A stretch of DNA of 33,259 nt from a virus: IMG/VR virus record IMGVR_UViG_3300023222_000334, positions 1 through 33,259 of that record. The stretch is one strand, 5' to 3'. The notes beneath the pieces were generated by a model. That model was not told the origin of the DNA. It searched no databases and worked only from the letters and a program-made list of their open reading frames with translations. The translations under genes were made by a program, and so were the position numbers. Shown here in pieces: positions 3,001 through 33,259 of the stretch (its first letter is position 1; each line of letters opens with the position of its first letter).

Positions 3001-4794
3001 GGATGCCGCCACGTGCCAATCGTCCGCGCTGCGCGTGGCCCCATGAGACTGCGTCGAGAGGTCGCTGAACTCGAGGAGCCCACTGACCGTGAGGCTATCT
3101 GCCGAGGCGCTATGCAGCTCCACGTCGGGGCCGTCGTGGACCTCGGCGACGAGGTAGGGTGTCCCTCCAATGTTCCCGAGCAGATCCATACTATCCGCTT
3201 GAAAACGGAAATCGATCGTTTGCCCAGGTCCCACGACGAAGGGTACGAATCCGAGAAAGAACTCCGTTGTGGTGTCGGTCCCCTTGGCGGAGAAGAAAAA
3301 AGTAGAGTCGCCGGCGAGGAGATCGAAGCCAGGGAGGGTGCCGTCAAAGGCCGCTTTGGACGGGACGTATCGAAGCACAATTCCCGTCGCCTGGTCCGTG
3401 ATCCGAGCGGTGAAATTCGTCATCGCACCATTCGCGCGAATCGTGATCTCGTCCAGCAAACGGAAATTGGGTGCGACGACGGTGGAGCTCAGCGAGAAGT
3501 CCAACGGGTTGGCGGTCAGTACTTGGGTATCATCTGTATTGATATTCAAAACTTCCGCGGCGCCGAAGTCGATGAACGTCGGCGTAGCGGATCCGACCGT
3601 ATCGTCGAAATCCGAATTGACAGAGAACGCCATCCCGTCCGCCACAAGATCGCCTACGACGAGATCGCTACCGCCTTCGGAGATTGACATCGCGTCGCCA
3701 AGGGTGACGGAGCCCGCCGGGACTACGATCGGGGTGTCAAAGATGATATTGAATCTGCCTGAATTGCCGATCTCTTCGAGAGTAATTCCCGACGCCCCGA
3801 ACACCCCTGCAGCTTCCCGCAATGGGATATCGGTCACCGGAACCGCGCTGAAATCTTCGCCGGTGCCGGGGATCCCGGTCACGGTCCCGAGGAAATCCAC
3901 ATCTCCAAAGGTGTTCGTACACTCCGTGACGGTGTCATAGATGGGGCCGTTGATCGTGCCGTTGTTGGTGACGGAGCCCGTGAGATCGGTGCTTTGAATA
4001 TTCAAAGTCCCGCCGACGTCCACCGTGATGTCGCCTTCAATCTTGCAATCGCTCAAGTTGAGCGTCGCCCCATCTCGCACAATGATATCGCCAAAAATAT
4101 CATTGATCTGCATCGACAGAATGCCGTCCACGACCTCAATCGCGACACTGGTAAGACCGCTCATCTCGATCGATCCCAGTCGGGCGGAGATCGCTCGATC
4201 GGAGATCGCGCTGCTATCACAGAGGAACCCGGTACAGTTCGGTCCCGTCATCGTGATCGAGCTTATCGCATACGTGTGCAAGGCTCCTGCGGGGACGTGG
4301 TTAACTCCGATACTCCCATCACCCGTCGCCGCGATGGCGTTCACATTGATCGCAGTGTTTGAAGACACACCCGTGTTTAATATGCCAACCTCGGAGTCCC
4401 CGTCCAAAGTGATCGTGTTAATCAACGCACTCAAACTCGAATTGGCGTTGGTGGAGTACGCGGTCGCGGAAGCGACACTCACATTGATGTCTGAGAATGA
4501 TGCCGAGCTCTCGGCACCCGCCGCTACCGCGACGCCACCCGTTCCCGAGATCGTGACGTTCGGCATCCCCACGAATACGCTATCGGGGATCGCGAAGTTC
4601 TCGTCGTAGGTGCTATTGCTCGGGTCGAGTATGGATACCGGGTCTGCAGGAATGGGGGTCAACGCGCTGGCTGTCGTGACCGCCTCTGCCAGTGTCAAGA
4701 GAGGGAAAATTAAACTCTCGCCCGTGGAGTCATCGTCCCCCACGTCCGATACGTAAACCTCTCTCGCGCCCGCAGGGATGAGTAGTACTGTCAT
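1..4794 (-). CDS. Giant multidomain tail fibre/spike protein (3' end outside window)
   Basis: The frame opens at ATG 4794 with upstream GTAGGAAAAAATCCC as ribosome site. I checked it codon by codon to base 1: no stop, so at least 1598 residues, C-terminus missing. Residues about 1-340 start with a YVSDVGDDD...PLLTLAEAV motif and then short repetitive beta strands rich in N, G, T and I, as in right-handed beta-helix phage spikes. Residues about 615-860 hold five units of 48-53 residues with F(K/R)xDGxxxY...WDIST, beta-propeller-like. Residues 919 and 1099 begin two near-copies of a xFHVFEDxAxTG...TGLQDWTxGVDN module; a TGTNGA...SPGDTYxR...DNTSW module occurs near 1311 and 1479. It follows baseplate and fibre genes, so a receptor-binding or depolymerising fibre is likely. 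No catalytic residues are assigned. Long plus-strand frames here are its shadows. Confidence 0.88.
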   Translation of the reverse strand, partial: MTVLLIPAGAREVYVSDVGDDDSTGESLIFPLLTLAEAVTTASALTPIPADPVSILDPSNSTYDENFAIPDSVFVGMPNVTISGTGGVAVAAGAESSASFSDINVSVASATAYSTNANSSLSALINTITLDGDSEVGILNTGVSSNTAINVNAIAATGDGSIGVNHVPAGALHTYAISSITMTGPNCTGFLCDSSAISDRAISARLGSIEMSGLTSVAIEVVDGILSMQINDIFGDIIVRDGATLNLSDCKIEGDITVDVGGTLNIQSTDLTGSVTNNGTINGPIYDTVTECTNTFGDVDFLGTVTGIPGTGEDFSAVPVTDIPLREAAGVFGASGITLEEIGNSGRFNIIFDTPIVVPAGSVTLGDAMSISEGGSDLVVGDLVADGMAFSVNSDFDDTVGSATPTFIDFGAAEVLNINTDDTQVLTANPLDFSLSSTVVAPNFRLLDEITIRANGAMTNFTARITDQATGIVLRYVPSKAAFDGTLPGFDLLAGDSTFFFSAKGTDTTTEFFLGFVPFVVGPGQTIDFRFQADSMDLLGNIGGTPYLVAEVHDGPDVELHSASADSLTVSGLLEFSDLSTQSHGATRSADDWHVAASLFKQDFSVTTQDGNPTGLFFRDDGLKMYVTGIATGGAVYEYDVGLSWDVSTAVFLQSFDPTQTNVFDVFFRANGLIMFTVDASTDILKEFALTTAWDISTASFVQSVNTASLGGGALPHSLFFKADGAAFYIADFSNQNVEQYDMTTNWDISSATFTTTSTITVSSATAACFKPDGTVMHVLGITGIITEFNLATPWLVSTDELVNTFDASKTTARGLRFKPDGSKLYIIDVTTRDVEEYNVGLAIEALLNITSANTTGAPAINFNDSLGANRASIIYTEVDQDLTITAVSGDLRLVSSGDLELLPSTGLTGVNTGTPFSTLHVFEDSASTGQAAGVTVEQDGAGDALLHFRLTGLQDWTMGVDNAIADQFAIGVGLGLNATSTLQLSVDGEVGINKTPRANHCLDIDTTLNTVVALYDTKDVTLEQGNNDNTNSTDLFFNRADAGFNQSEFHLFNGNNNVDTLRLFHMNFTDAGAVGGLSIRYSGFVAVGIGENADAESTFHVFEDTATTGSETGVTIEQDGAGDALIHLTLTGLQDWTLGVDNSESDGLSINPGLSLAADPAFHITTGGSLGLGTSSPTDNLEIASAEPSVRYTGSAGDFQHSVNSVGNSLMRSSRTAGPINWDFTGLPVDGTSSATYRFGINSGSTGNQSIRLFEPSSSTENAKISSSGTDTFFNAIPGAMFGIGNTTPTVLLDVLSTLADTVPVLALETTGTNGARTETFVGTQDPTGAVTGSPGDTYVRSNGTSSDLFIHKGASADNTSWADITSDGNVTTSDVLTNNVLLRGGGGVDIDAIQSATGTISTNTAGNTLEIATGSTGTGSFVLQDDSSIDRLTLEYDIDSNTSNLTTNNALTIQSSSLLAVIRSSADTAAVLGLESTGTNGANVAIFVGTRNPTGLVTASPGDTYRRDDGVDSAIFLHIGASSDNTSWIELGANTNLANTDLTLDASRVHQLDGNPLVFEEGSNVLLSLSGGQSQLKFNNNVLHADATGLQLDSEA

Positions 4795-17046: not shown

Positions 17047-17426
17047 GGGGTTCCCGTCACCAATTGCCGCACCGCCAGGACTCCGCGCCAACCGGATATC
17101 GGATTCCAATCATTGGGGCTCTGGAGCTGATATCGCTCTCCATTGAATTCAATCTGATCGCCTGAGATGTCACGATCTGTAGATACCAGCGAATTGTCGG
17201 TATAAATCATGATGTAGTACTTATCAAGATCAAGACCCAATTGAGAATACAGCGCGCGGGGAACGGCTTGGATCGAGTCGTTTAATGTGACCGCCGTATC
17301 GTAAGTTGTGACCCACATTCCCCGAACGTCTAGCGTTCGCGAGGCCACGAAATACTCGTACTCGGATTTGCCGATGAGCTTACTAGCTATCTTGTATAAG
17401 TTCATGCTGGGAACACTGAAGCTCAT
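17043..17426 (-). CDS. Neck/collar-region protein
   Basis: 127 residues overlapping both neighbours through ATGA. Sequence KLIGKSEYEYFVASRTLDVRGMWVTTYDTAVTLNDSIQAVPRALYSQLGLDLDKYYIMIYT and QIEFNGERYQLQSPNDWNPISGWRGVLAV is typical of small phage head-tail joining proteins lying between the gp10-like and gateway genes. I cannot name the family with confidence; a collar or head-closure function is inferred from order. Confidence 0.78.
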   Translation of the reverse strand: MSFSVPSMNLYKIASKLIGKSEYEYFVASRTLDVRGMWVTTYDTAVTLNDSIQAVPRALYSQLGLDLDKYYIMIYTDNSLVSTDRDISGDQIEFNGERYQLQSPNDWNPISGWRGVLAVRQLVTGTP

Positions 17427-17917
17427 GATTTCTCCACCACATGCGTTACAGACGCCAACATGAGCCCCGTCTCTACCAACGGCTTATCGAGAGAGCCCAC
17501 CGTTACCGCATCCGCAAGCTTGCGTTTCTTCGCCGCGATCGTGGCGGGCTTGAGCGGAGGGGCCATCACTTGTGTGATACTTCGAGCGACCTCGCCCGCG
17601 ATCGATAAACCCAATGCCTCCAGCATATTCTCTACCGTTTGCCGCCCGTCATAGATCTTTTTCGCTTCTTGATCAATGAACTTGCGCCAGAAATTCTCCT
17701 CTCGCACGATCGTGGGGCGCATGAAGGGTCGCGCGGGAATGCCCCCTTCCGGATACCCGAACTCGTGGATCGTGGCGATATAGGCGACTGGAGTGCCATC
17801 GGGATATCGATTCGTTTCGAACCAACCCACCTTCAATTCGGATCCGCTGAGTTGCTTGCTGACCTTCTCGAGGCGCGCGTAGGCGGCTTTATCGGATTTT
17901 CGGATGACTTGGGCCAT
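17423..17917 (-). CDS. HK97 gp10-like neck/head-completion protein
   Basis: 164 residues from ATG 17917 (MAQVIRKSD). An upstream in-frame start at 17986 would overlap the DUF4054 gene by 56 bases and adds unrelated sequence, so it was not used. The core LKVGWFETNRYPDGTPVAYIATIHEFGYPEGGIPARPFMRPTI and the later LKPATIAAKKRK...KPLVETGLMLASVTHVV are the family signature (HEFG...IPARPF, then PLxxTGxMLxSxT). It acts in head-tail joining. Confidence 0.88.
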   Translation of the reverse strand: MAQVIRKSDKAAYARLEKVSKQLSGSELKVGWFETNRYPDGTPVAYIATIHEFGYPEGGIPARPFMRPTIVREENFWRKFIDQEAKKIYDGRQTVENMLEALGLSIAGEVARSITQVMAPPLKPATIAAKKRKLADAVTVGSLDKPLVETGLMLASVTHVVEKS

Positions 17918-18383: not shown

Positions 18384-18821
18384 TTACGGTGCCGGGATCG
18401 AGGACCGCCGGCGACGAGACGTGGGAATCAAGCTATCACCGACCTCGTTTTGCATATCCGGTGCGATAGACCCCACCGTGGGCGGCTTTAGCCCGTCATC
18501 TTCATAGTCCGCCGGCGTCATTGGCGCCGAACCGTCTTTGGGCTCCATATCCTTCGCCACGTCATCCGCGGCGTATTCCTGAGTTTCGACTTTCAGATGA
18601 TTCGCCTTGAGATGCCGCTGGAACGCCTTATTCTGTTGCAGGCGGTCGTACTGCTCATCCGTAATCGTCGTGAGTACACCCTTTGGTGTTACCAATTGCT
18701 TTGACGGCAAGTTGGCGCCCCCCTGAATGGTCACAGACGAAGCGATTTTGGGCACATTATTGTGCATCAACCATATCGGATATTTGTAGGAGTGCGTGAG
18801 GGTCGAGTAAACAAAAACCAT
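18384..18821 (-). CDS. Hypothetical protein after the capsid gene
   Basis: 145 residues, start three bases after the capsid stop. The first 75 residues look folded (YKYPIWLMHNNVPKIASSVTIQGG, then VLTTITDEQYDRLQQNKAFQRHLKANHLKVE). The rest is charged and proline-rich (MEPKDGSAPMTPADYEDDGLKPP, ending SRRRRSSIPAP) and probably disordered. It is positioned like the small protein between capsid and connector genes in related myoviruses. No function is assigned. Confidence 0.75.
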   Translation of the reverse strand: MVFVYSTLTHSYKYPIWLMHNNVPKIASSVTIQGGANLPSKQLVTPKGVLTTITDEQYDRLQQNKAFQRHLKANHLKVETQEYAADDVAKDMEPKDGSAPMTPADYEDDGLKPPTVGSIAPDMQNEVGDSLIPTSRRRRSSIPAP

Positions 18822-21744: not shown

Positions 21745-22631
21745 GGCACCTCTTCTCCCTCGTCCAAGGAAATTACGGGAATCATTCGACATTTGCAATT
21801 CGGAAGTTGTGATGGCAACCCGGTCTCGCCTGTCTTCTCGTCAATGATCGGAGGATCTTTCAATTCGTAAATGCCCCCATTGAGGCCTGCGGGAAACTTA
21901 TCGATATGGAACTTTCTCGGCTTCTGCCCCCCGCCCGAATGCAACCACTCGAATTTAGATAGTCCCGCGCTTTCCATCCTCACTACGTTCAGTTTGTTGT
22001 ACGCTTTTCTCGTTTGATCGAGCGCCATGTTCTTTGCGTGGCGTTCGCCAACCCCTCTCTCTTTCATAAAAAACGGAACGAGATCTTGCATCCCATTGCC
22101 TGTGAAAATCGAATCAAATACGGCTTGACTGATTTTCGATAGTTGAGTGTCTGTCAGTTTCGTGATCAATCTGACGTTTTCGATAATCTCTACGTTTAGT
22201 TTATTTTGGATATCCTTACTGATCAAACTCGGCTTGAGGGTGACACCGCCGGATAGCTCCTTGAGAGACGTGGCGACATTGGCCTGACTGCTTTTGTTGG
22301 CGCCCGAGACCATTTTCTTCGCTGCCGTTTTGACACTTTTCTCCGCCGTCATAGTCAATTGCTTAGACAGACGGTCCAGTACCCCGCCAGCCTCTTCCGC
22401 AATTTCATACTTTTTCGCTAGCAGTTGTTCCTCACTGTACTGAGAAAGAAATTTCGTTACCTCTCGCTCCGTTCTCGTCATGTTCTTTTTAAGAATCTTC
22501 TTGACGTCGCGAGTGTACTTACGCTCTACAGTGACAGGGAAATTCAAAGCGCCCCCGCGCATTGTCGCAGTGGGCTTGGTCTGCTTAATCCACTTTTTCT
22601 TTTTCTTTGAAAGCTTGAGCCGTTTAGCCAT
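21741..22631 (-). CDS. Mu F-like minor head protein
   Basis: 296 residues, overlapping the portal stop by 8 bases. A very basic N-terminus (MAKRLKLSKKKKKWIKQ) and a long helical middle precede the signature region at about 190-285: GVGERHAKNMALDQTRKAYNKLNVVRME, then FEWLHSGGGQKPRKFH..D, a GG and PNCKCRMIPVI. This R...H...D...CxCR pattern defines the Phage_Mu_F family. It sits on or near the portal and is injected or cleaved in some phages. Confidence 0.92.
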   Translation of the reverse strand: MAKRLKLSKKKKKWIKQTKPTATMRGGALNFPVTVERKYTRDVKKILKKNMTRTEREVTKFLSQYSEEQLLAKKYEIAEEAGGVLDRLSKQLTMTAEKSVKTAAKKMVSGANKSSQANVATSLKELSGGVTLKPSLISKDIQNKLNVEIIENVRLITKLTDTQLSKISQAVFDSIFTGNGMQDLVPFFMKERGVGERHAKNMALDQTRKAYNKLNVVRMESAGLSKFEWLHSGGGQKPRKFHIDKFPAGLNGGIYELKDPPIIDEKTGETGLPSQLPNCKCRMIPVISLDEGEEVP

Positions 22632-24669
22632 GGGTGATTTGGCGTGATTCGTTACTCATGATCATGGTCGTGAGCGGGGTGTCCTTAAAAGCCTTTCGCG
22701 CTTTGCCCGGATCGTCCCGCAGAGGATCGTACTTGATTGTGATGTGAGGTTTGAATTCATCATAGGTGGACCTAGCCCCCATGGCTTCAAGTACCTTAAA
22801 CCGCTCGCGAAGCTTCGGGGACTCGACGAACATCACAAGCGCCGGCTTATCGTCCGGGCCCAATAGCCCGATCTCTCCTGTGAACTCGAGTTCATACTCT
22901 TCTCGGTCAGACACATATTCGGGTATCCCCTCTTCTGAATAGGCCAGCGTCACGTGCACATCGTCATAAGGGATTGCGTCTTCAATGCCGGCATCCATGA
23001 TCCATCGACAGAATTCGGCAGCGATAGCGCCACTCGGGGTGATGGAGACATAGCCGAGCATCCCCGCATCCGCTCCGGTATCGGGCTCTTCGTTGCCTTT
23101 CTCGAGCGCCGCGAGCTTCTCCAAACCTTCTAGCTCGTCGTCATCGTCCTCGAGATCTTCCTCAGAGTATTCATCAATGCCGGTGTAGCCCGATCCTGCA
23201 TCTTCGATAATCCGATTCCGCACGTCATTGCCATCAATGGCGCCCGAGGCCATCAAGGTTTGATCGGTCTGAGATTTCATCAAACCAATTTCGGCCGCTT
23301 CTTTCGCGGAGGGGGAGTCTGCAGGATTCCATACCGTCACTACTTTGAAAGGGGTCTCGGGTGCGATCTCGGATTTGATCACGAGCTCGTGGTGACGATC
23401 TACGACGAGACTCAAATCCGTTTGGATGCCCTCGAGCAAACCGATATATGTTTTCAGCTCGTGTTCTCCTGTGGCATTGAAACCCTTGGGGCTTGTGCCC
23501 AGGAGCTTTGTCGCCGGAATCTCGGACACCGCCGCGACGAGTTGATACTGAGACATGATCACGTCATCGAGATCGGCCAAAGAGGTATCAATCTGAGTCA
23601 ACTCGTCATCGAGGCCCTGAACGTACACACCGTAGTTATTTCGAAATTGAATCAGTTGATCGAGACGAGCCTGAAAACCCCCGGGCTGGGCTGTGACGGC
23701 TGCAATATCCACCTTGACGACGTTCAATCGTTTCGTTTCCGTGAGCATGGGCGCTTCATTGGCTACACGCTCCGCCGCATAGACGCGCTCATAGATCAAT
23801 TGGGTGAGCGGGATCCCGCCATACTGATAGGTCGGCTTCAAAATGTCTGGGGGATTGACGTAGCGACAGAGCACCAAATGAGATTTGTGATAGAGCTGCC
23901 CGCTAATGGTCCACCACGTGGGCTCGTAGAAGTCCATCGCCGCCGGGTTCGCGACCGATTGCTCGTCCAGAATCGGCGCCACCCAACTCGGATCGACTTG
24001 CGTCATGCCCTTATAGGAATCTTTGGTGATGCCATCGATATTGAACGGTTTCCGGTAGTACTCGGGATCGTCAGACTCGACGACAAAGAGGATAAAACGA
24101 AATCCGAAACGACGCTTATTGGTCTCGAACTCGATGAGATTTTCTTCGAGTTTATATTCCTTATCCGCTTCTCGCAGGGCAGACATGTACTTGAGGTCGA
24201 GTTCTTCCCCATCATCGGTGGCGATCTCAAAACCGTTTCGAACGGCATCTTTTGCCGGAATGGTCAACGTCTTATTGATCAACCAATGCTGGCTGATGAT
24301 CGCGCACGCCTGATAGCCGATGAAGCTTTGCGTCATGTACCAGTTGAATACTGCGTCAGGAATGATCCCTTGATTGAGACTAAACGCGCTTTTCAACTGC
24401 GTCGAATCCATACCGTAACTTTGGATGGCTTCATCTACTGTAAGCGTTTCGCCCTCGCCTTTTTTCGTGGGGATTTGGGTAAAAGCCTCCGGGCCCGGGA
24501 GTGCGATCGGCGCAGAGGAGTGACCCCCGGGCAACACATTATTGCGATGCGTCGAGAACAGTACGGGGCCGTTCTCATCGAAAAAGCTTTGCCGCTCGGG
24601 CTCCTGTGAACTGGAGTCCACAACCTCGGGCACCTTCTTTTTCCAAAACTTCAACCATTCAAGCGACAT
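22624..24669 (-). CDS. Portal protein (DUF1073-type) with C-terminal Acb1-like 2H phosphoesterase domain
   Basis: 681 residues from ATG 24669 (GTG at 24672 is possible), right after the terminase stop. Residues about 95-490 are the portal: WYMTQSFIGYQACAIISQHWLINKTLTIPAKDAVRNGFEI, LLGTSPKGFNATGEHELKTYI and the C-terminal helical crown. An acidic linker (EEDLEDDDDELEGLE) follows. Residues about 542-681 (bases 22627-23046) form a separate domain with two HxTx motifs, HVTLAY at about 572 and HITIKY at about 642, 70 residues apart. This is the catalytic layout of 2H phosphoesterases and of the T4 anti-CBASS nuclease Acb1, whose histidines are spaced alike. Portal-Acb1 fusions are known in this family. 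The enzyme would destroy cyclic nucleotide signals of CBASS. Other 2H activities cannot be excluded. Confidence 0.9.
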   Translation of the reverse strand: MSLEWLKFWKKKVPEVVDSSSQEPERQSFFDENGPVLFSTHRNNVLPGGHSSAPIALPGPEAFTQIPTKKGEGETLTVDEAIQSYGMDSTQLKSAFSLNQGIIPDAVFNWYMTQSFIGYQACAIISQHWLINKTLTIPAKDAVRNGFEIATDDGEELDLKYMSALREADKEYKLEENLIEFETNKRRFGFRFILFVVESDDPEYYRKPFNIDGITKDSYKGMTQVDPSWVAPILDEQSVANPAAMDFYEPTWWTISGQLYHKSHLVLCRYVNPPDILKPTYQYGGIPLTQLIYERVYAAERVANEAPMLTETKRLNVVKVDIAAVTAQPGGFQARLDQLIQFRNNYGVYVQGLDDELTQIDTSLADLDDVIMSQYQLVAAVSEIPATKLLGTSPKGFNATGEHELKTYIGLLEGIQTDLSLVVDRHHELVIKSEIAPETPFKVVTVWNPADSPSAKEAAEIGLMKSQTDQTLMASGAIDGNDVRNRIIEDAGSGYTGIDEYSEEDLEDDDDELEGLEKLAALEKGNEEPDTGADAGMLGYVSITPSGAIAAEFCRWIMDAGIEDAIPYDDVHVTLAYSEEGIPEYVSDREEYELEFTGEIGLLGPDDKPALVMFVESPKLRERFKVLEAMGARSTYDEFKPHITIKYDPLRDDPGKARKAFKDTPLTTMIMSNESRQITHG

Positions 24670-24674
24670 CACAT

Positions 24675-25892
24675 CTAGTCCCAGAAGCTCACTGGACGCT
24701 TCTTAGTAAGAGGTTCAATTGCGTAGCGGATCGCGTCGACACAGTGATTATGCTTATCCACGATATCCGACAAAATATCCTGTGTGAGCCGATCTCGTTT
24801 GTATTTATATAACTTAGCCTCTTCCGCCGTCTTCGGACAATCCGTATGGATCACGATCTGCCTGAACGAACGCAGTTTTGTGATGCCATCCTCGATACTC
24901 CCGGGCCACTTCTCTGCCGAGATGATCCGGGGAAACCCATGCCGCTTCACATGACTGACCAATTCCGGCCGCGCATTGTCGGCACGAATAGGATACCGAT
25001 TCGCGCCTTCCATCTTGGCTAAAAATGCAGTGGTGTCATCAATCTCGACGTGAAGCCCCCACAGCTCCCGGCGAATGTAGATCTTATTGGCCTCGAGATC
25101 GACATAACATTCTATCATCGTCATGGGATCGGTCGAGAACCCCCAATCCACGCCGTAGTAGGGGCCATCCCAGGAGCTCTCGACCTCAAATTCTTCAACA
25201 CACCATTTCCCGCCCAAGACTTGATCGTCTGATTTGGTGTTGTAGTCGCCGAGCCAGACATGGCCATAGGTATCGGCATCGTGTTTTTGCCAAATGCGCG
25301 CCTCTTCTTTCACCACCTCCGGACAAAACGGATTCTCTTCGAAAGTAAGATGCGTGACGATCGCATTGTGCGGGGGATCCTTCACGAGAAATTCTTCGAT
25401 CGGATCCGTTTCTTGATCGGGGTTCCAGCTAAACCAAATCTCAGAGCCGGGCTCTCGAATCGTGGGGCGCAAGAGCTCGAGCGAGCGCTTACTCATCTTG
25501 CTCGCTTCCTCGAACCATGCGCGGTTGAACCCCTCTAAGGATTTGATCGCGTCGGCCGTATGATCCTGCATCCCCTGGAAAATGATCCGACCACAAGGGG
25601 CGCCCATCACACCGGTGCGACGTATCTCTGTGTCGAGTACCTTAAATAAATGGCCGACACCGAAGTTATGGATCTTGAGTTCAATCAGTTTTTTCGCTGA
25701 GAACTTGAGGCTTTGCTGCACTTCGCGCAGGCATACAAAATCGGTGTAGGGGTCGATCATCATGGCTTCGACAGCCAGCTCTGCGAAGAAATGGGATTTT
25801 GCCGAGGCGCGACCGCCTTTCAGTCCCTTGTATCTTTTCGGTTCCAGATAGGGGAGGGCCCATTTCGGCGTGGGGAGTTCGAGCGTCGTCAT
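24675..25892 (-). CDS. terL: Terminase large subunit
   Basis: 405 residues, ATG 25892. The ATPase has a Walker A variant GGRASAKSH at about residues 26-34 (the usual form is GGRGSGKS) and Walker B RAWFEEAS near 126-132. The nuclease has GVDWGFSTDP near 248, RADNARPELVSHVKRHGF near 304 and NHCVDAIRYA near 383, the three acidic sites of a PBSX/Terminase_3-type enzyme. It cuts and pumps the genome through the portal encoded next. The two glycine-to-alanine changes in Walker A are mild oddities. Confidence 0.95.
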   Translation of the reverse strand: MTTLELPTPKWALPYLEPKRYKGLKGGRASAKSHFFAELAVEAMMIDPYTDFVCLREVQQSLKFSAKKLIELKIHNFGVGHLFKVLDTEIRRTGVMGAPCGRIIFQGMQDHTADAIKSLEGFNRAWFEEASKMSKRSLELLRPTIREPGSEIWFSWNPDQETDPIEEFLVKDPPHNAIVTHLTFEENPFCPEVVKEEARIWQKHDADTYGHVWLGDYNTKSDDQVLGGKWCVEEFEVESSWDGPYYGVDWGFSTDPMTMIECYVDLEANKIYIRRELWGLHVEIDDTTAFLAKMEGANRYPIRADNARPELVSHVKRHGFPRIISAEKWPGSIEDGITKLRSFRQIVIHTDCPKTAEEAKLYKYKRDRLTQDILSDIVDKHNHCVDAIRYAIEPLTKKRPVSFWD

Positions 25893-26559: not shown

Positions 26560-26733
26560 TTATTTATCTTCCCTATCCTTCGAGTCGCCAATGATGAATT
26601 TCTCGAATTCCTTCGCCAGACGCTCAATGGTGTCATCCGAAATTATAGCGGAGTCGGCCGAGAGCACTGTGGCCGCGCACTTTGCCGCTTCGATTCGAAT
26701 CACAATCTCAAGGTCTGGTATACCATTAATCAT
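26560..26733 (-). CDS. Small hypothetical protein after terS
   Basis: 57 residues from ATG 26733, which has GGAGG nine bases upstream and overlaps the terminase small subunit stop by 8 bases; a longer frame to 26805 is less likely. Sequence MINGIPDLEIVIRIEAAKCAATVLSADSA, then a helical ISDDTIERLAKEFEKFIIGDS, ending in charged residues. Small acidic helical proteins with LEIVIRIEAAKC-like starts occur beside phage terminases; function unknown. Confidence 0.7.
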   Translation of the reverse strand: MINGIPDLEIVIRIEAAKCAATVLSADSAIISDDTIERLAKEFEKFIIGDSKDREDK

Positions 26734-27385
26734 CTTTTCGTTCCTCCGCGTCTCCAATGATCGTTCTAATAATCCCTGTGACAGGTTCATCCCCTGAAGT
26801 GACATCGGTGCGCTCCTTGAGCCCGACCTCGCGAATCACCAAATTCGAATTCATCATGTCCGCCGCCGCGGCTTCAATCTTTTGAGTGTACATCACACCC
26901 TCGATTCGTTCGATCACGAAACTAAATTCTTTTCTCGCCTTGTAGGCGTACCACGTAGTCGAAGAGATCCCCAAATAAATGTGTAAACTAGTGAGTGTCA
27001 TCATGCGCATTTTCGTTTGCTTGAGATCGACCTGCTCGCCCTGATAATGCGTGGCCTTCACTTCGTATAGGGGATTATCCTCCATCCACTCGAAATAGCC
27101 TGTCGCATCTTCCCAGAGTTGCTTCGCGCTCGCGTACAGGCGCTCGCCGCCCACTGTCAAGTGATATTTGCGCCAAACGCTCTGATTCTTGAGCAGCGGT
27201 GGATCGCCGCGCACACGCATTTCGGGCTCATCGGGCTCGTACTCGTGCTGCGCGACGCGATCCGCTTCCTCGTCCTTCTCGACGTCGGATAGCTCAGGAG
27301 GCGGCGGTAGCGTCTTCTTGAAGTATTTGGCCAGATGCGCGGCTTTGCGTCGGGCTCTTCGAGTCTTTTTGTCGTCGTCGCTCAC
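26726..27385 (-). CDS. terS: Terminase small subunit
   Basis: 219 residues from GTG 27385 (AAGGTCC upstream). A basic N-terminus (KKTRRARRKAAHLAKYFKK) and proline-acidic linker precede the conserved part: AKQLWEDATGYFEWMEDNPLYEVK, then KMRMMTLTSLHIYLGISSTTWYAYKARKEFSFVIERIEGVMYTQKIEAAAADMMNSNLVIREVGL. This is the gp3-type DNA packaging protein pattern (helix-turn-helix, oligomerising helices, NxxIxRxxGL end). It recognises the packaging site and hands DNA to TerL. It overlaps the membrane protein gene by 92 bases. Confidence 0.9.
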   Translation of the reverse strand: MSDDDKKTRRARRKAAHLAKYFKKTLPPPPELSDVEKDEEADRVAQHEYEPDEPEMRVRGDPPLLKNQSVWRKYHLTVGGERLYASAKQLWEDATGYFEWMEDNPLYEVKATHYQGEQVDLKQTKMRMMTLTSLHIYLGISSTTWYAYKARKEFSFVIERIEGVMYTQKIEAAAADMMNSNLVIREVGLKERTDVTSGDEPVTGIIRTIIGDAEERKDD

Positions 27386-27860
27386 TGTGGGGGACCTTTT
27401 TAGCTTGGGGGATGACTACAAGAGGGTCTGAGAGTCCCTCCAGTATGCCTAGGATGCGATTTACGGCGTCATTCGTATGCCCACGCTCGGTATTGGCGAT
27501 TCCGAGCGCTGTGTGGATTTTACCTAGCTCTCTGACGGTTCCGGTTTCAGTGACCCGGAATGCCTCAATCGCGCCCGAATTGACATTGATTTTGTCCGAG
27601 TTATTAGCGATCTGACCCCAGAGCACACCCACGGCGATGCTCCCCGTCACCACACCCGCCAGCATAATTATAGCTTGCCATACCGGCATGTGAAGGCGAT
27701 CCAGAAATATCGCGTGATTTGCCCCACCCTGCTCTGATCCCTCGCTCACCTCGCGACTCCGTTCGATGCCCCACATTTCGACCCCACTCCCGTAGGTCCT
27801 AAAAATCCATCCATAGCGCGGGGGCTCGAGCCTCGCATCGGGATAGCTGAAACAAGTCAT
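27294..27860 (-). CDS. Single-helix membrane protein
   Basis: 188 residues from ATG 27860, 22 bases after the previous stop; ATG 27776 (MWGIER, with GGGAGTGGGG upstream) has the better ribosome site and may be the true start. One clear transmembrane helix lies at about residues 60-83 (WQAIIMLAGVVTGSIAVGVLWGQI). It is followed by a helical stretch (ANNSDKINVNSGAIEAF...VRELGKIHTALGIANTERGHTNDAVNRILGILEGL) that could form a coiled coil, then a basic tail. Layout resembles holin-associated or XhlA-like membrane proteins, but no lysis enzyme is nearby. Its last 92 bases overlap terS. Confidence 0.7.
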   Translation of the reverse strand: MTCFSYPDARLEPPRYGWIFRTYGSGVEMWGIERSREVSEGSEQGGANHAIFLDRLHMPVWQAIIMLAGVVTGSIAVGVLWGQIANNSDKINVNSGAIEAFRVTETGTVRELGKIHTALGIANTERGHTNDAVNRILGILEGLSDPLVVIPQAKKVPHSERRRQKDSKSPTQSRASGQILQEDATAAS

Positions 27861-27882
27861 GACGGATTCGGGGGCGCGCTCG

Positions 27883-28248
27883 CTAATCCTCCGCGTTTTG
27901 AGCCATCTCGCGAAGATAATCTTCCATCTGGAGAGTGACCCGGACGCCTTCCCAATCCTCGAGACCCTCCAAAAGCTTGAGCACGCAAGCCACCGAGACG
28001 TAATTCTGGCCGTCGAGATCGAGAATCAATTCCCCGCGAAACTCGGCACTCAACAACGCCCACTTCCCCTCGTGAGGCAAACGGGCTGCGGAAAGAAAAA
28101 CCTCGTCCCACTCGGGAGAGTAGACGCCGAGGATCTGACTCTCACGGGTCATACAAATCCCCCAACCCCCGGGCGCGACATCGTGCGCCCCTCGCACCGT
28201 TCGATATCCGCGCACCTTCAATTTCTCTCTCGCTTCCTGTTGATCCAT
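27883..28248 (-). CDS. Hypothetical protein, first gene after the palindrome region
   Basis: 121 residues; AGAGGAGAACGG immediately before ATG 28248 is a strong ribosome site. The sequence (DQQEAREKLKVRGYRTVRG, GGWGICMTRESQILGVYSPEWDEVFLSAARLP, GELILDLDGQNYVSVACVLKLLEGLEDWEGVRVTLQMEDYLREM) looks like a compact alpha/beta protein with no export signal. I do not recognise the family. As the first gene below the gene-free region, it may lead the packaging and structural operon. Confidence 0.8.
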   Translation of the reverse strand: MDQQEAREKLKVRGYRTVRGAHDVAPGGWGICMTRESQILGVYSPEWDEVFLSAARLPHEGKWALLSAEFRGELILDLDGQNYVSVACVLKLLEGLEDWEGVRVTLQMEDYLREMAQNAED

Positions 28249-28319
28249 CCGTTCTCCTCTCTTGAATTCCCGCTAAATTGCGGGGGTACGCCGGCGCCTA
28301 AAACTTCCCGCGGGTGGTC

Positions 28320-28329
28320 TGTGCCAAAA
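28320..28329 (+). repeat. Element TGTGCCAAAA, single copy
   Basis: Perfect copy of the 10-base element, followed by G and TTTTCCCC. It is in inverted orientation to the copy at 28432-28441; the bases between include a TATA-rich stretch. Confidence 0.75.
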
Positions 28330-28431
28330 GTTTTCCCCAAACCTCCTATACAATTTCAAAAAACACGACTATGTTATAAAAATTTATATTTCCAGTTTTT
28401 TTACTATAGTCTTTGGAGAGAATAATCAAAG

Positions 28432-28441
28432 TTTTGGCACA
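28432..28441 (-). repeat. Element TTTTGGCACA, single inverted copy
   Basis: Perfect reverse copy of TGTGCCAAAA, preceded by CAAAG, which mirrors the copy at 28320. Confidence 0.75.
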
Positions 28442-28477
28442 GTGACCTATAAAGTATTGATTTTAAACAGGTTATTG

Positions 28478-28507
28478 TGTGCCAAAAGTGAAATCACTTT
28501 TGGCACA
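28478..28507. repeat. Long palindrome, arms TGTGCCAAAAGTGA
   Basis: Two perfect 14-base arms separated by AA: TGTGCCAAAAGTGA at 28478-28491 and TCACTTTTGGCACA at 28494-28507. No T-run follows on either strand, so a simple terminator is unlikely; a dimeric protein site or a cruciform is more plausible. Confidence 0.85.
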
Positions 28508-28604
28508 ATTATGCAACTTTCTCCCATAACTATTGGTGTTCTATCTGTGTCGGTTTGAAATCCACTCTGGTACACTTTTGACTCAGTCGCAAACCGCAGC
28601 TGTT

Positions 28605-28613
28605 TTTTGGCAC
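28605..28613 (-). repeat. Element TTTTGGCAC, partial copy
   Basis: Nine of ten bases of the element, followed by G in place of the last A. It lies roughly midway between the two palindromes. Confidence 0.65.
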
Positions 28614-28731
28614 GTTTTCGCCTTACTTCCGGGACTATTTGGTGTAGGTTATATGACGTAGAGTAATCCTCGTTACTCCAGCCTATAAATATTGTTACAT
28701 AACGGATAATGTTTTGGGTCATTTAGGGCTC

Positions 28732-28763
28732 TGTGCCAAAAGTGAAATATCACTTTTGGCACA
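28732..28763. repeat. Long palindrome next to the primase stop
   Basis: Perfect 14-base arms TGTGCCAAAAGTGA (28732-28745) and TCACTTTTGGCACA (28750-28763) with a four-base centre AATA. It starts one base after the primase TAG. Same arms as 28478-28507. In the primase mRNA it would form a strong 3' hairpin but is followed by GAGCCC, not a U-run. Confidence 0.85.
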
Positions 28764-28764
28764 A

Positions 28765-31182
28765 CTATTCGGCGTCTGCGAGGGCATCCCTCACAAATTG
28801 GATAAAGGACTCTCGCAACCCTGTTAGATTCATGTCGGAGATCGATTCGCACAATTCTTTCTGTGCGGGGGTCTTTCGTTCTGCGCTCCACGCATCCTGA
28901 ATCGCGTCGCCATCAGGGCCACTGATGGCGCGGAGTCGGTATTGCTTGTCGCCAAACCGATGTCTCCATGGCGTACCGTCATGGCCGCGGATCTCTTCAG
29001 CGCGGTTGCGCAGCTCGCGCTTGACGGGTCGCTCCCAATTGCGAATCGTGTCTAGCCCCAAGGGGAGAGCCAATTTCTCGAGACATCCGAGAAACTCATT
29101 GATGAAGACAACGCCGTGAGTTTGCTCCCGGGCAAAAGCGAGACAAAGCCCGATCGCGCCATCGACTCCGCGCCCACTGCCGAGTGCCCACACTGCGTTA
29201 TCTCGCGTGTCCTGAACCTCTTGGCGTGCGAACGGGGCCATGTTGCCGAGATCGCGGGCGAGGAGCCAGCGCCAGACATCCGCTTCCATCCCCGATTCGA
29301 TCCAGCCGTACAACTCCTCGAATTTCTTCGGCGACCAAATGTGAGTCGTGTTGCGCAATCGACGAAATCGTGTATTCGCCGTATCCATCGGCAACACATC
29401 TAAATGTTGACTACACAGAATCGTAGACCCGTAACAGAGAACCAATCGATTGACGAGGTACTTGATTTTGAGTTCAAGAGGAGAGGGAGCAGTATCGACG
29501 AAATTCTTGGAGGACTCGTAGGCCGTGAATTCCATTCGCGCGCTCATGTTGGTTTCTTTCGCTTCGGGAATGAACACCCAATCGGCTAGAATCCAACCGT
29601 TGTAATTGGCTGAGGTACACCCTTCAAGGAAGTTAGAGAGTGAAACCGAGGTCACATTGTGCCAGCTCCATAACCTCGCTAAAATGGTTTGCAATGTCCC
29701 GCGCCCCGACCCTTCGATTGGCGTCGTCATGATGACACCGGGACCCCGATACTTTGGGTTCTGGGCTTTGCTGGCAAGATGATCGAGAAACCATTCTGCG
29801 TCTTCAGGGTCAGGAATCAGATAGCGAATGAACTCGAGAAAGGGTGCGACGCGACCCCGATCAAAGTGCCCTACCCCCCACTTTGGAAGATTCCAACTAT
29901 TGAGAGAAGGATACCCACCCCCGAAATTATGAATCACTTCCGGGCCTCCTACCTCATGTAGCCTTCCCGCAAATCGCATTCGGTCGGGGTCTCTACCCCA
30001 AGCGGTACATTCGTTCACTCCCTTAAATGTGCCGTCCGCTGCGGGAATCCACACCAACCCGGCGAGTTGATTTTTGAATCCGGTAAACGGAAAGGCTTTG
30101 AAATCGGGGGACTTCATATCAATGACCTGATTGTTCTCCATATCGAAGGCATAGCGCGAAACGAATTGTTCAATCTGCCCGTTCTGCCCCGCCTTGGGTC
30201 CATCCTCTTCGACCACCCACAAGAGAAAATCGCGCGTGTTCTTGTCATTGCAGCCATCGTGAAAGCAATGAAAGCCGCGGGTCGTGGGACGCGAGCCCAT
30301 GCCGAGAGGCGTGTACCCCGCGCTATTCTCCCCGGTCGTGTGCGCGCTTGCCCAAGGGCAGAGAATCGTGATCCACTCCCCCGTTTCTGTGATGATCTGA
30401 TCCTCGCGCTGCAGCCACTCGAGAACGGGGTCAATAATCCCGTCGAGGTTCATTTGGTAAGGGATGTGGGTCCGGTACTCGCTGGTCCCCGCGCGTCGGG
30501 ATTTGGGTCGCGCGCCGGCGACGAGAGCATCCCAGGTCGTCTCGATCTCGGCTTGTCTCATGAGGAGTTCCGGGGACCAATGGTGCCCCAACATCTGTTC
30601 GAAACGACATTCGAAAGGATTCCCCTCGGCGTCCTGGTACTTCTCCTTGAGATTCACGCCACAGGGCAACCGCACGAGCTTGTTGGGCATGCACCCCCCG
30701 CGATCGACGCCGAGTTTCTGTATCAGAAGCCTCTGAAAGGCTTTGGCAAGCTCGAGATCGCGAATCGGTTCGTCTAGGCTGTAGCCATATTGAAAGTTGT
30801 CTGGCGACGTCTCTATGATGTAGGAAGGATTTTTGCGATACGCCTCGGGTAGCGCTTCCTTTGCGAGCTTGCTCCCGGGCCCCGACCCCACGTCATCGAG
30901 CACCAACACGTGAAAGCCCGTGAACTGGCTCTGGCGGTTGTAGAGGTTCCCTTTCGGGTCGACCGCCATGGTCGAGCACCCCATGTAACAGGCCTGAGGG
31001 CGCCCCGCACGCAGATACGCTTTCCCCCAACCCTCTTCTTTCGTAGGGAAACCGGGCACTTGGCGTGAGGTCGACCAAAGACAGATCTCTTCGTCGTCCA
31101 GTTGCGCATGGAAGACGAAATCGAGGAACTCTTGGGCTGTTTTGAGTTGATTTTCTTTGGGGGAGGTCTTATGATCGGTCAC
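28765..31182 (-). CDS. Primase-helicase (AEP-like primase, zinc motif, D5/DUF5906-like ATPase)
   Basis: 805 residues, GTG 31182 with AAAAAGGAT upstream. Residues about 88-180 look like an archaeo-eukaryotic-type primase core (FHVLVLDDVG, PSYIIETSPDNFQYGYSLDEP, GVDRGGCMPNKLVRLP). Residues 275-320 hold a Cys/His cluster (CPWASAH...HCFHDGC...RDFLLW) common between primase and helicase parts. Residues 455-620 form the ATPase: GVIMTTPIEGSGRGTLQTIL as Walker A, with arginine where lysine is expected, and ADWVFIPEAKE as Walker B, then VLCYGSTILCSQHLDVLPMD...RFRRL. It would prime and unwind the phage genome. The palindrome array begins right after its stop. Confidence 0.9.
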   Translation of the reverse strand: MTDHKTSPKENQLKTAQEFLDFVFHAQLDDEEICLWSTSRQVPGFPTKEEGWGKAYLRAGRPQACYMGCSTMAVDPKGNLYNRQSQFTGFHVLVLDDVGSGPGSKLAKEALPEAYRKNPSYIIETSPDNFQYGYSLDEPIRDLELAKAFQRLLIQKLGVDRGGCMPNKLVRLPCGVNLKEKYQDAEGNPFECRFEQMLGHHWSPELLMRQAEIETTWDALVAGARPKSRRAGTSEYRTHIPYQMNLDGIIDPVLEWLQREDQIITETGEWITILCPWASAHTTGENSAGYTPLGMGSRPTTRGFHCFHDGCNDKNTRDFLLWVVEEDGPKAGQNGQIEQFVSRYAFDMENNQVIDMKSPDFKAFPFTGFKNQLAGLVWIPAADGTFKGVNECTAWGRDPDRMRFAGRLHEVGGPEVIHNFGGGYPSLNSWNLPKWGVGHFDRGRVAPFLEFIRYLIPDPEDAEWFLDHLASKAQNPKYRGPGVIMTTPIEGSGRGTLQTILARLWSWHNVTSVSLSNFLEGCTSANYNGWILADWVFIPEAKETNMSARMEFTAYESSKNFVDTAPSPLELKIKYLVNRLVLCYGSTILCSQHLDVLPMDTANTRFRRLRNTTHIWSPKKFEELYGWIESGMEADVWRWLLARDLGNMAPFARQEVQDTRDNAVWALGSGRGVDGAIGLCLAFAREQTHGVVFINEFLGCLEKLALPLGLDTIRNWERPVKRELRNRAEEIRGHDGTPWRHRFGDKQYRLRAISGPDGDAIQDAWSAERKTPAQKELCESISDMNLTGLRESFIQFVRDALADAE

Positions 31183-31268
31183 TATACTGGATCCTTTTTG
31201 TTGGTAGCGAATCGGATTTAGGTCATTGAACGAAGACTGCTATCTCAGTGGGTGGTTAGAATACAGAA

Positions 31269-31304
31269 AGCCCCCGGCCCTGCGCTGGGGGCTTTTTCTT
31301 TTTC
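31269..31304. terminator. Rho-independent terminator, T-run stronger on plus strand
   Basis: Stem AGCCCCCGGC/GCTGGGGGCT (10 pairs, one G-T), five-base loop CCTGC. On the plus strand it is followed by TTTTCTTTTTC; on the minus strand by TTTCTGTATTCT. It can act on leftward transcripts, but the better U-tract is on the strand without genes. Confidence 0.8.
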
Positions 31305-31474
31305 ATCACATGATCATTTTTGTGTTGCCTTTGGATACCATGCCGTTTATTGTCAAACATGTGTGGGTCACCCTCCCGGTTTGAAACAGGGGCGATGGGG
31401 TGGGACACATACTGACTGTGGAGCTTTGTTGTTGGCGCTCAAAGTTCCGTCTCCTTCCTGGGATAAGTCAGAGA

Positions 31475-31512
31475 AGCCCCCAGTCGTTTTCACGACTGGG
31501 GGCTTTCTTTTA
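31475..31512. terminator. Rho-independent terminator, 13-bp perfect stem
   Basis: Stem AGCCCCCAGTCGT/ACGACTGGGGGCT with loop TTTC. Plus-strand tail TTCTTTTA, minus-strand tail TCTCTGACTT. It lies downstream of the helicase and 86-residue gene for leftward transcription and may work in both directions. Confidence 0.82.
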
Positions 31513-31537
31513 CCCCCGTCTTGCTTGGTTCCCCTCG

Positions 31538-31577
31538 ATCATCCTTCCGGAAAATCGTCGGCTTGTCCAGCACTTTC
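31538..31577 (-). repeat. Fossil copy of the helicase 3' end
   Basis: 40 bases matching 31892-31931 at 36 positions. In one frame it encodes ESAGQADDFPEG stop, against ESVGQADDFPEG stop in the helicase; that frame is closed by TAG a few codons upstream, so it is not a gene. It begins right at the TGA of the 86-residue gene. Confidence 0.85.
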
Positions 31578-31836
31578 AGAACTCGTTTTCTAGTTTTCTC
31601 TCCCGTCGCACATTGGCCGCACTCCTGTCGCATTCTTTCGCTCGAATAAGCAGTGCTTGCGCTAGGGCACGAGCCAATTCTGGACTAAAACCAATCGAAT
31701 CAATAGGCTGTCTAAAGGCAATGACCACTTGTCCTCCCGCGGCGGTAATCTTGACTAGAATCTCTCCTTCGTCATCGTCTATCAATGACTCTGGGGGGAT
31801 TTTGCCTGTCGCGTCCGGTCCTCGATGGTGTGACAT
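31576..31836 (-). CDS. Small hypothetical protein between two helicase-tail copies
   Basis: 86 residues, AAGAGGTAAAA before ATG 31836, a strong ribosome site. The charged N-terminus (SHHRGPDATGKIPPESLIDDDEGE) is followed by VKITAAGGQVVIAFRQPIDSIGFSPELARALAQALLIRAKEC, a beta-hairpin and helix pattern seen in small phage early proteins. The function is unknown. It is flanked by the helicase end (31892-31931) and a diverged copy of it (31538-31577), as if inserted behind the helicase. Confidence 0.75.
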   Translation of the reverse strand: MSHHRGPDATGKIPPESLIDDDEGEILVKITAAGGQVVIAFRQPIDSIGFSPELARALAQALLIRAKECDRSAANVRRERKLENEF

Positions 31837-31891
31837 TTTTACCTCTTATTTTATTTACCCTGCGTGTTTGATTATTTTTGTGCTGCTTAGA

Positions 31892-31931
31892 ATCATCCTT
31901 CCGGAAAATCATCGGCTTGCCCCACACTTTC
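31892..31931 (-). repeat. Helicase 3' end, original copy of duplicated segment
   Basis: The last 13 codons of the helicase including its TGA. 36 of 40 bases recur at 31538-31577, on the other side of the small gene. Confidence 0.85.
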
Positions 31932-33259
31932 GGGCCCCAGATGCTTCAAAAATAATTCGTGATGATCGCCCTTTCCTTGGCAGACAGCCCACTTCACCTC
32001 ATCGATCGTGCCACGGGTCATCAGCACCTCGATCGTCACCGGGTTCTCTTGTCCGCGCCGCCAGAGGCGTCCTATCGTCTGTTCGTAGCGGTCGCGGCTC
32101 CAGATGGGGTTAATCCAAATTTGCCTCGAGCAGGAGTCCTGTAGCCCGTCGACGCCATGCCCGCCGCTTGCGGGATGGAGCAAGAGAACCTGCGCCCCAC
32201 CCTTGCTTTTCCACTCTTCCATCACGGCATCGACATCGGCGCCGCCCGAGATTTCGAGCGCATCAGGGAACTCTTCGCGTAACCATTCAAGGTCGGCTTG
32301 GAACCAATAAACGACAATGACGGACTCTCTTGCAGCTCTGAGTTCATTGACCCGTGTGACAGTCCAGTCCATTTTGACGCAGTGCAATAATATTGTGGTG
32401 TCGATCGCGGTTTCATTTTCGGTATAAACAGCACCATCGGGGGTCAATTGGTATTTGCCCGATAGATGCCCCGCTTCTTCTCTGAAATAGAGGAAACCAT
32501 TCGCCATTTGTTCGAGTTTCCCTGAGAGCACCGCGCGGTTAGAAGCTTCGATCAATTGATTAGCCATGAGTCTCACCACCGCGTGCCGGCGCATCTCATG
32601 GTAAAGATCCATCGTTCCACGGGGAACGTCGAGGTACACGAGCTCGACATTCAACTCTGGCAACTCGTCCTTGTAGTCGGGCATCACATGCACGAGGTCG
32701 CGAATCTTGTTCGCAATACGGACGTCGCGCCCGGGGAGCAGCGCCCAGTCGTACTGGTTCCAATCGGTCGGATAGAAATATGTCCGTTTGAATTGGTCAA
32801 AGGTCCGGCCAAAGCGTCTTCCAAGGTCGAGCAACTGGACTTGCCCGAAAAGCCCGAGCCAGTCCTCGCCTACGGGCTGCGCCGTCATGCCGACGCGCCA
32901 TTTGAAATGCTGCATCTGGTGGCGGAGCTTCTTAAATCGCGCCCCACCCGTCTCGCTCCATTTGCTCGTCTCGTCGATGCAGATGCCGTCGAAGGATAAC
33001 CCCCCATTGCGAGCCAGATCGCAGAGATTGTAATTTTCGAGCAGCCATGGGACGTTTTCTTCGTTGATCACGACAATATTCGCGGAGGATAGAAGCGCGT
33101 TTTCGCGCTCTTCAGGATCGCCCACAGCAAGCGCAATTTCGAGATGCGCTAAATGGACCCATTTCTCGTGCTCCGTCACCCACGCGGTCTGACAGACCTT
33201 CAAAGGGGCGATCACGAGGATTCGACGGAGAGGATTGGGCCCCAGTTCCCACAGTATAT
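31893..33259 (-). CDS. SNF2-type DNA helicase (5' end outside window)
   Basis: The frame stays open through base 33259, so the N-terminus with Walker A lies beyond the window; 455 codons are visible. ILVIAPLKVCQTAWVTEHEKW is motif Ia. FDGICIDETSKWSE is the DExx box (DETS), RVGMTAQPV is motif III, and VIVVYWFQADLEWL starts the second lobe. LLLHPASGGHGVDGLQDSCSRQIWINPIWSRDRYEQTIGRLWRRGQ holds motifs V and VI with the arginine finger. This is a phage SNF2/DEAD-like helicase used in replication or recombination. GTG 33215 is an internal codon, not the start. The gene ends in ESVGQADDFPEG. Confidence 0.93.
   Translation of the reverse strand, partial: ILWELGPNPLRRILVIAPLKVCQTAWVTEHEKWVHLAHLEIALAVGDPEERENALLSSANIVVINEENVPWLLENYNLCDLARNGGLSFDGICIDETSKWSETGGARFKKLRHQMQHFKWRVGMTAQPVGEDWLGLFGQVQLLDLGRRFGRTFDQFKRTYFYPTDWNQYDWALLPGRDVRIANKIRDLVHVMPDYKDELPELNVELVYLDVPRGTMDLYHEMRRHAVVRLMANQLIEASNRAVLSGKLEQMANGFLYFREEAGHLSGKYQLTPDGAVYTENETAIDTTILLHCVKMDWTVTRVNELRAARESVIVVYWFQADLEWLREEFPDALEISGGADVDAVMEEWKSKGGAQVLLLHPASGGHGVDGLQDSCSRQIWINPIWSRDRYEQTIGRLWRRGQENPVTIEVLMTRGTIDEVKWAVCQGKGDHHELFLKHLGPESVGQADDFPEG

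Follow-up and report, generated by a model that had tools for sequence, protein, structure and literature searches.

What is a short word, repeated seven times in DNA that lacks genes, doing beside the replication gene of an uncultured phage? We addressed this question for the TGTGCCAAAA array at 28320-28763 of a complete IMG/VR virus record of 33,259 bp, analysed over its full length (the window). The array is probably a replication origin to which the phage's own primase-helicase binds. This reading is supported by the adjacent gene, by relatives with arrays in the corresponding position, by the phage NrS-1, and by co-variation of word and primase wing in a related clade. For the window itself, we infer it from where the array lies, how the protein is built and what distant relatives show.

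The word array and its surroundings in the window

A search of the whole record returned six exact copies and one 9/10 copy of TGTGCCAAAA (Table 1), just as the sequence-only reading had counted in under 450 bases. Outside the array, the sole match with at most one mismatch lies at 18747 on the minus strand, and the genome-wide count proposed as a check thus found the word concentrated in the array. At this tolerance we observed 8 matches record-wide against 1.56 expected, a number reached in 0 of 100 shuffles; within the 516-bp gap the top 10-mer occurred seven times, whereas none of 100 dinucleotide shuffles reached seven (mean 2.4, maximum 4). Mechanical open reading frames span the gap (e.g., 28447-28722 on the minus strand, 91 aa), and with the next likely gene start at 28248 its description as gene-free is fair.

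Table 1 Features of the array and its neighbourhood in the window
Feature	Position	Strand	Basis or property
Word copy 1, TGTGCCAAAA	28320..28329	+	exact match
Word copy 2	28432..28441	-	exact match
Word copies 3 and 4	start 28478 / 28498	+ / -	exact matches, within palindrome A
Word copy 5, CGTGCCAAAA	28605..28614	-	9/10 match
Word copies 6 and 7	start 28732 / 28754	+ / -	exact matches, within palindrome B
Palindrome A (copies 3 and 4)	28478..28507		14-bp arms, 2-nt centre, 100% complementary
Palindrome B (copies 6 and 7)	28732..28763		14-bp arms, 4-nt centre, 100% complementary
AT-rich core between inverted copies 1 and 2 (putative melting region)	28330..28431		73% AT
Non-coding gap holding the array (proposed origin region)	28249..28764		40% GC; primase stop to next likely start codon
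AEP primase-helicase, 805 aa (proposed initiator)	28765..31182	-	PF16793 E 2.4e-8; PHROG 4861 E 8.3e-16
Predicted winged helix, primase residues 672-753 (putative word reader)	28924..29169	-	model secondary structure
SNF2-like helicase, upstream gene of replication module	31893..33215	-	PHROG 62 E 2e-86
Terminase small subunit (TerS), first recognised gene of packaging module	26726..27385	-	PF16677 E 1.3e-22
Terminase large subunit (TerL)	24675..25892	-	PF04466 E 3.2e-31

Both palindromes proved to be perfect, with arms of the length first described, and palindrome B is separated from the primase stop codon by a single base. The inverted pair said to surround an AT-rich core was likewise found, as copies 1 and 2 (28319-28333 and 28428-28442; 15 nt, 93% complementary, 94 nt apart), and three of the seven copies fall in neither palindrome. 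Terminator-like calls were absent at palindromes A and B, where no stem followed by a T-run was detected, in agreement with the earlier view that these are not simple terminators. The GC skew, by contrast, did not show the turn at the array that had been suggested as a check. The exact palindrome was absent from the other viral contigs searched, Rfam gave no match, and blastn of 27600-33259 against phages gave none.

On the minus strand, the genes run from the SNF2-like helicase and the AEP primase through the array to two small unknown open reading frames, TerS, TerL, portal and head genes. We also noted a 40-nt direct repeat (90%; 31538-31577 and 31892-31931) that takes in the 3' end of the helicase gene and, between the primase and helicase genes (~31473-31504), a perfect palindrome with 14-bp arms followed by T-rich DNA, which is terminator-like. 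An Acb1 (anti-CBASS) domain (PF23474) is present in the C-terminal part of the portal protein (22624-24672, minus strand; residues 541-654) and also in the portals of L002 and L003, two loci described below.

The adjacent primase-helicase and comparable systems

The primase was modelled with AlphaFold2 (19 aligned sequences, mean pLDDT 82.9) and the model compared by VIA-align. Residues ~9-225 resembled the cyanophage S-2L PrimPol (Z 15.9, rmsd 3.2, 177 aligned) and RepB' with initiator DNA (3h25; Z 14.1, rmsd 3.3, 175 aligned), and residues ~335-673 resembled the C-terminal region of the NrS-1 polymerase (Z 21.5, rmsd 3.5, 278 aligned) and the SaPI5 primase-helicase (Z 16.6, rmsd 4.8, 273 aligned). 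Beyond the helicase, the model places three helices and a hairpin, the pattern of a winged helix. The protein is therefore predicted, at the level of the model, to combine a RepB'/PrimPol-like AEP part, an NrS-1-like SF3 helicase and a C-terminal winged helix. When the primase was used as a single query sequence, viral and genome contig collections yielded no relative, and it matched 0 of 30 TerL-related records.

We infer that the array is bound by the primase encoded next to it, with melting of the core and priming at the same site. In this scheme, the TGTGCCAAAA words would serve as iterons to which the winged helix binds pairwise at both palindromes and at either edge of the AT-rich core. 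Assembly of the SF3 helicase part at the array would open the core, exposing strands on which the AEP part would synthesise primers.

Similar arrangements are known. In phage P4, the alpha protein unites primase, helicase and an origin-binding C-terminus, and ori and crr consist of short repeats in both orientations. In the SaPI Rep/ori and SCCmec Cch2 origins, according to the available part of PMC7581432, the initiator helicase gene is followed immediately by short repeats, which the C-terminal domain of the helicase binds. The window likewise has short repeated words directly downstream of its initiator gene and a helicase with a predicted C-terminal DNA-binding domain, and its helicase fold matches that of SaPI5; it differs in that primase and helicase are one protein, in belonging to a tailed phage with its own terminase, and in its different word, set in palindromes.

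NrS-1 (L082, AB746912) provided a parallel in layout: directly after the polymerase gene (stop 17051) it has an array, spanning 1.1% of the genome, of 11 AAGTGTAAC words in both orientations, among them two palindromes (17101-17120 and 17167-17190). Helicase fold, the order primase, array, TerS, TerL, and words in both orientations with two palindromes are common to NrS-1 and the window, whereas the word differs, and the Pfam head, tail and HBD models (PF22761-PF22763), which match NrS-1 in the same profile test, were absent from the matches of the window protein up to E 10. The published NrS-1 priming sequence, given as TTTGGTTA in the accessible text of PMC8718748, occurs exactly once in AB746912, as the complement at 17198, inside the array; the portion of PMC7102993 available states two genomic copies. 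We did not find TTTGGTTA in the window, and similarity in sequence between the two arrays was rejected, the longest shared word being within the shuffle range. An annotated hypothetical open reading frame, NRS1_29 (17055-17456), overlies the NrS-1 array and may not be a real gene. Our literature search found no report on the NrS-1 array or on a code linking wing and word.

Word arrays in relatives

Across 272 loci, we found no TGTGCCAAAA array elsewhere: apart from six copies in L001, a locus made up of DNA of the window, a single stray copy turned up, in L189. Arrays built from other ~9-bp words, again in both orientations, occupy the corresponding replication/packaging junction in the closest TerL relatives, in NrS-1 and in many relatives of the primase. 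We then counted clusters of any word, defined as a 9-mer present at least five times in 600 bp with both orientations counted. Clusters were detected in 27 of 116 primase-relative loci (14 of 66 groups; L170, mostly tandem repeat, and L185, which begins inside the gene, are doubtful), compared with 3 of 79 TerL-related controls without a primase relative, and in none of five shuffled rounds. L006, with both primase and array, was excluded from both sets. In a further count, which had no shuffle control, 76 of 110 loci had a top both-strand 8-mer with at least five copies inside 700 bp; many of the loci are near copies of one another.

Two of the three control matches are L002 and L003, the closest TerL kin of the window (72% and 71%), with 7 ATCGGGTCC and 9 TGCGTGACA words, respectively, at no more than one mismatch upstream of TerS (0 of 100 shuffles in each case). 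Only one TerL relative, L006, has a primase-type gene (Prim-Pol, PriCT-2, D5_N, DUF5906), and six ATGTTGCGC words lie between that gene and TerL. The sequence-only reading had let its case depend in part on whether close relatives with the same gene order share the array; its place is kept in these three loci, with other words, and the nearest primase relatives are without a clear array. Among the 18 relatives aligned with the window primase (28-38% identity), several of them incomplete at their ends, none had a cluster of at least five words. The TGGTCAAAAA words of L088 were borderline, being reached in 4 of 100 shuffles, and the GGCCTCA repeats of L087 were dropped as not significant. L090 has 11-bp arms 33 nt apart directly after its primase, and some of the nearest primase relatives, such as this one, may use a stem-loop instead of an array. 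Several relatives also have an SNF2-like helicase gene near the primase.

The form of the arrays varied. L003 contains a long inverted repeat of GCGTGACA words at 3603-3747 with a core of ~60 nt. In L139, L141, L145 and L162, and in L083 and L163, one-strand arrays of AAGACTTAG (~20-bp spacings) and of ATGTAAAC/GTTTACAT (8 to 13 copies) lie upstream of TerL.

Co-switching of word and primase wing, and rival readings

We performed an association analysis in 37 non-redundant loci of the L142 clade, whose primase is only ~25% identical to that of the window, comprising ATAGCCTA (19), ATGACGTC (10) and ATGACCCA (8) arrays; the three words came from de novo counts and were chosen before residues were inspected. 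When mapped on a tree built from primase columns 1-650, the word shows 15 changes, close to the 15.8 of shuffled labels. Primase column 754 gave a mutual information (MI) with the word of 1.38 of 1.48 bits, with G in 18 of 19 ATAGCCTA loci, N in all 10 ATGACGTC loci and H or A in 7 of 8 ATGACCCA loci, and column 756 was second-best at 1.09. The best value elsewhere in primase columns 1-700 was 0.52, and the maximum over 500 permutations was 0.71. Nearest neighbours in primase columns 701-798 agreed in word at 0.81. Among independent pairs (L157 and L264 omitted), ATGACGTC/N agreed in 8 of 8 and ATAGCCTA/G in 8 of 9, the remaining one being without a difference. L240 and L242 are probably mislabelled and were retained in these counts. 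In the L142 model (mean pLDDT 77.3), the covarying residues are 745 and 747, in a loop predicted between strands 739-744 and 753-757 after helix 726-735, the position of the wing. These results, from related phages, suggest at the sequence level that the word is recognised by the C-terminal wing of the primase and that the two switch in step.

In this clade, the median distance of the array is 3984 bp to the primase stop and 820 bp to TerL. Neither the DNA 0-1000 bp past the primase nor the TerS-side DNA tracked the word, whereas the last 300 nt of the primase did (0.58 vs shuffled 95% 0.53; L157 alone omitted from the array-flank and primase-flank tests). Because the array is far from the primase and only the 3' end of that gene follows the word, linkage offers no easy explanation. 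On the other flank of the array, ~0.8 kb tracked the word moderately (0.56-0.69), and the array therefore appears to move with some neighbouring DNA.

An operator array, in which the words are sites for a regulator of phage or host origin that controls the late genes downstream, is an unlikely alternative that draws on the palindromic pairs, on the position upstream of the structural operon and on the frequent location of arrays between early and late genes in relatives. The dimeric regulator considered alongside an origin in the sequence-only reading fits poorly, since the palindrome centres differ (2 vs 4 nt) and copies also occur singly, outside the palindromes. Promoter-like calls were at chance level (1 found, mean 1.0), no conserved open reading frame beside the array was seen in 12 relatives inspected, and the covarying residues belong to the primase. 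Both functions can hold at once, since an initiator may also repress.

We consider it improbable that the array is a pac/cos-type packaging site bound by TerS, whose gene follows it. Such a site would suit the arrays of loci with P22-type TerL, mostly 0.6-1.6 kb upstream of TerL, and those of L002 and L003, in whose examined DNA no primase gene was found; in the L142 clade, however, neither terminase subunit follows the word (nearest-neighbour agreement 0.42 for TerS and 0.40 for TerL, best MI 0.38 and 0.33), and, again in relatives, L129 and L142 differ in word while their TerS and TerL are 95% and 98% identical.

There is also little likelihood that structure counts rather than the word, with the hairpins or one large stem-loop serving as single-strand priming sites for the AEP part. 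Sites of this kind are used by RSF1010 RepB', to which the AEP part is similar in fold. As single strands, palindrome A (z -5.37), palindrome B (z -9.87) and the wide inverted pair (z -3.36) fold better than shuffles. According to the available part of PMC4234260, a single pRN1 protein, ORF904, contains an AEP primase, an SF3 helicase and a winged helix; the origin of pRN1, a 100-bp stem-loop, follows the replication gene, and the same arrangement is proposed for some phages. Both pRN1 and the window have structured non-coding DNA directly after an AEP-SF3-winged-helix gene; the pRN1 origin is a single large stem-loop with iterons unreported in that part of the paper, whereas the window has seven words and a wide pair with a 15-bp stem. 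Against structure alone, the copy at 28605 lies in no palindrome, relatives in the L116-L195 range (e.g., L180, 6145-6162) have words head to tail at exactly a 9-bp step as well as inverted, and the C-terminal wing, not the AEP part, tracks the word. The structural reading does not compete fully with the origin reading, since it concerns another step at the same origin.

Beyond an origin bound by its primase-helicase in the window, we give even chances to a wider pattern, in which many scattered tailed phages with AEP primase-helicases mark their origin, where the replication and packaging modules meet, by repeats of a ~9-bp word that face both ways. Such words would jump between phages and be read by the C-terminal wing, and specificity would switch by a few residues plus a new array, possibly as an escape from interference by satellites or by relatives infecting the same cell. 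In NrS-1, the array would be an overlooked origin, and the TGTGCCAAAA array of the window a further and so far unique specificity. This pattern, with its co-switching of wing and word, is more interesting than the window origin itself. If it is true, origins become recognisable in many uncultured phages, and a code of wing residues and words allows origin specificity to be predicted and tested in vitro. There would also be a concrete hypothesis for where the NrS-1 polymerase starts on its own genome, and repeated word switching among nearly identical phages would point to replication-incompatibility pressure.

Wing pair and word were tallied over 72 non-identical loci. The pair NK occurred with at least three ATGACGTC words in 9 of 14 loci, the expected word missing in the other 5; HV occurred with ATGACCCA in 3 of 3, KR with TTGTCCAC in 2 of 3, and G at column 754 with ATAGCCTA in 18 of 21, and other wing pairs were mixed or unmatched. 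L240, L242 and L251 share common wing residues and seemingly a fourth word.
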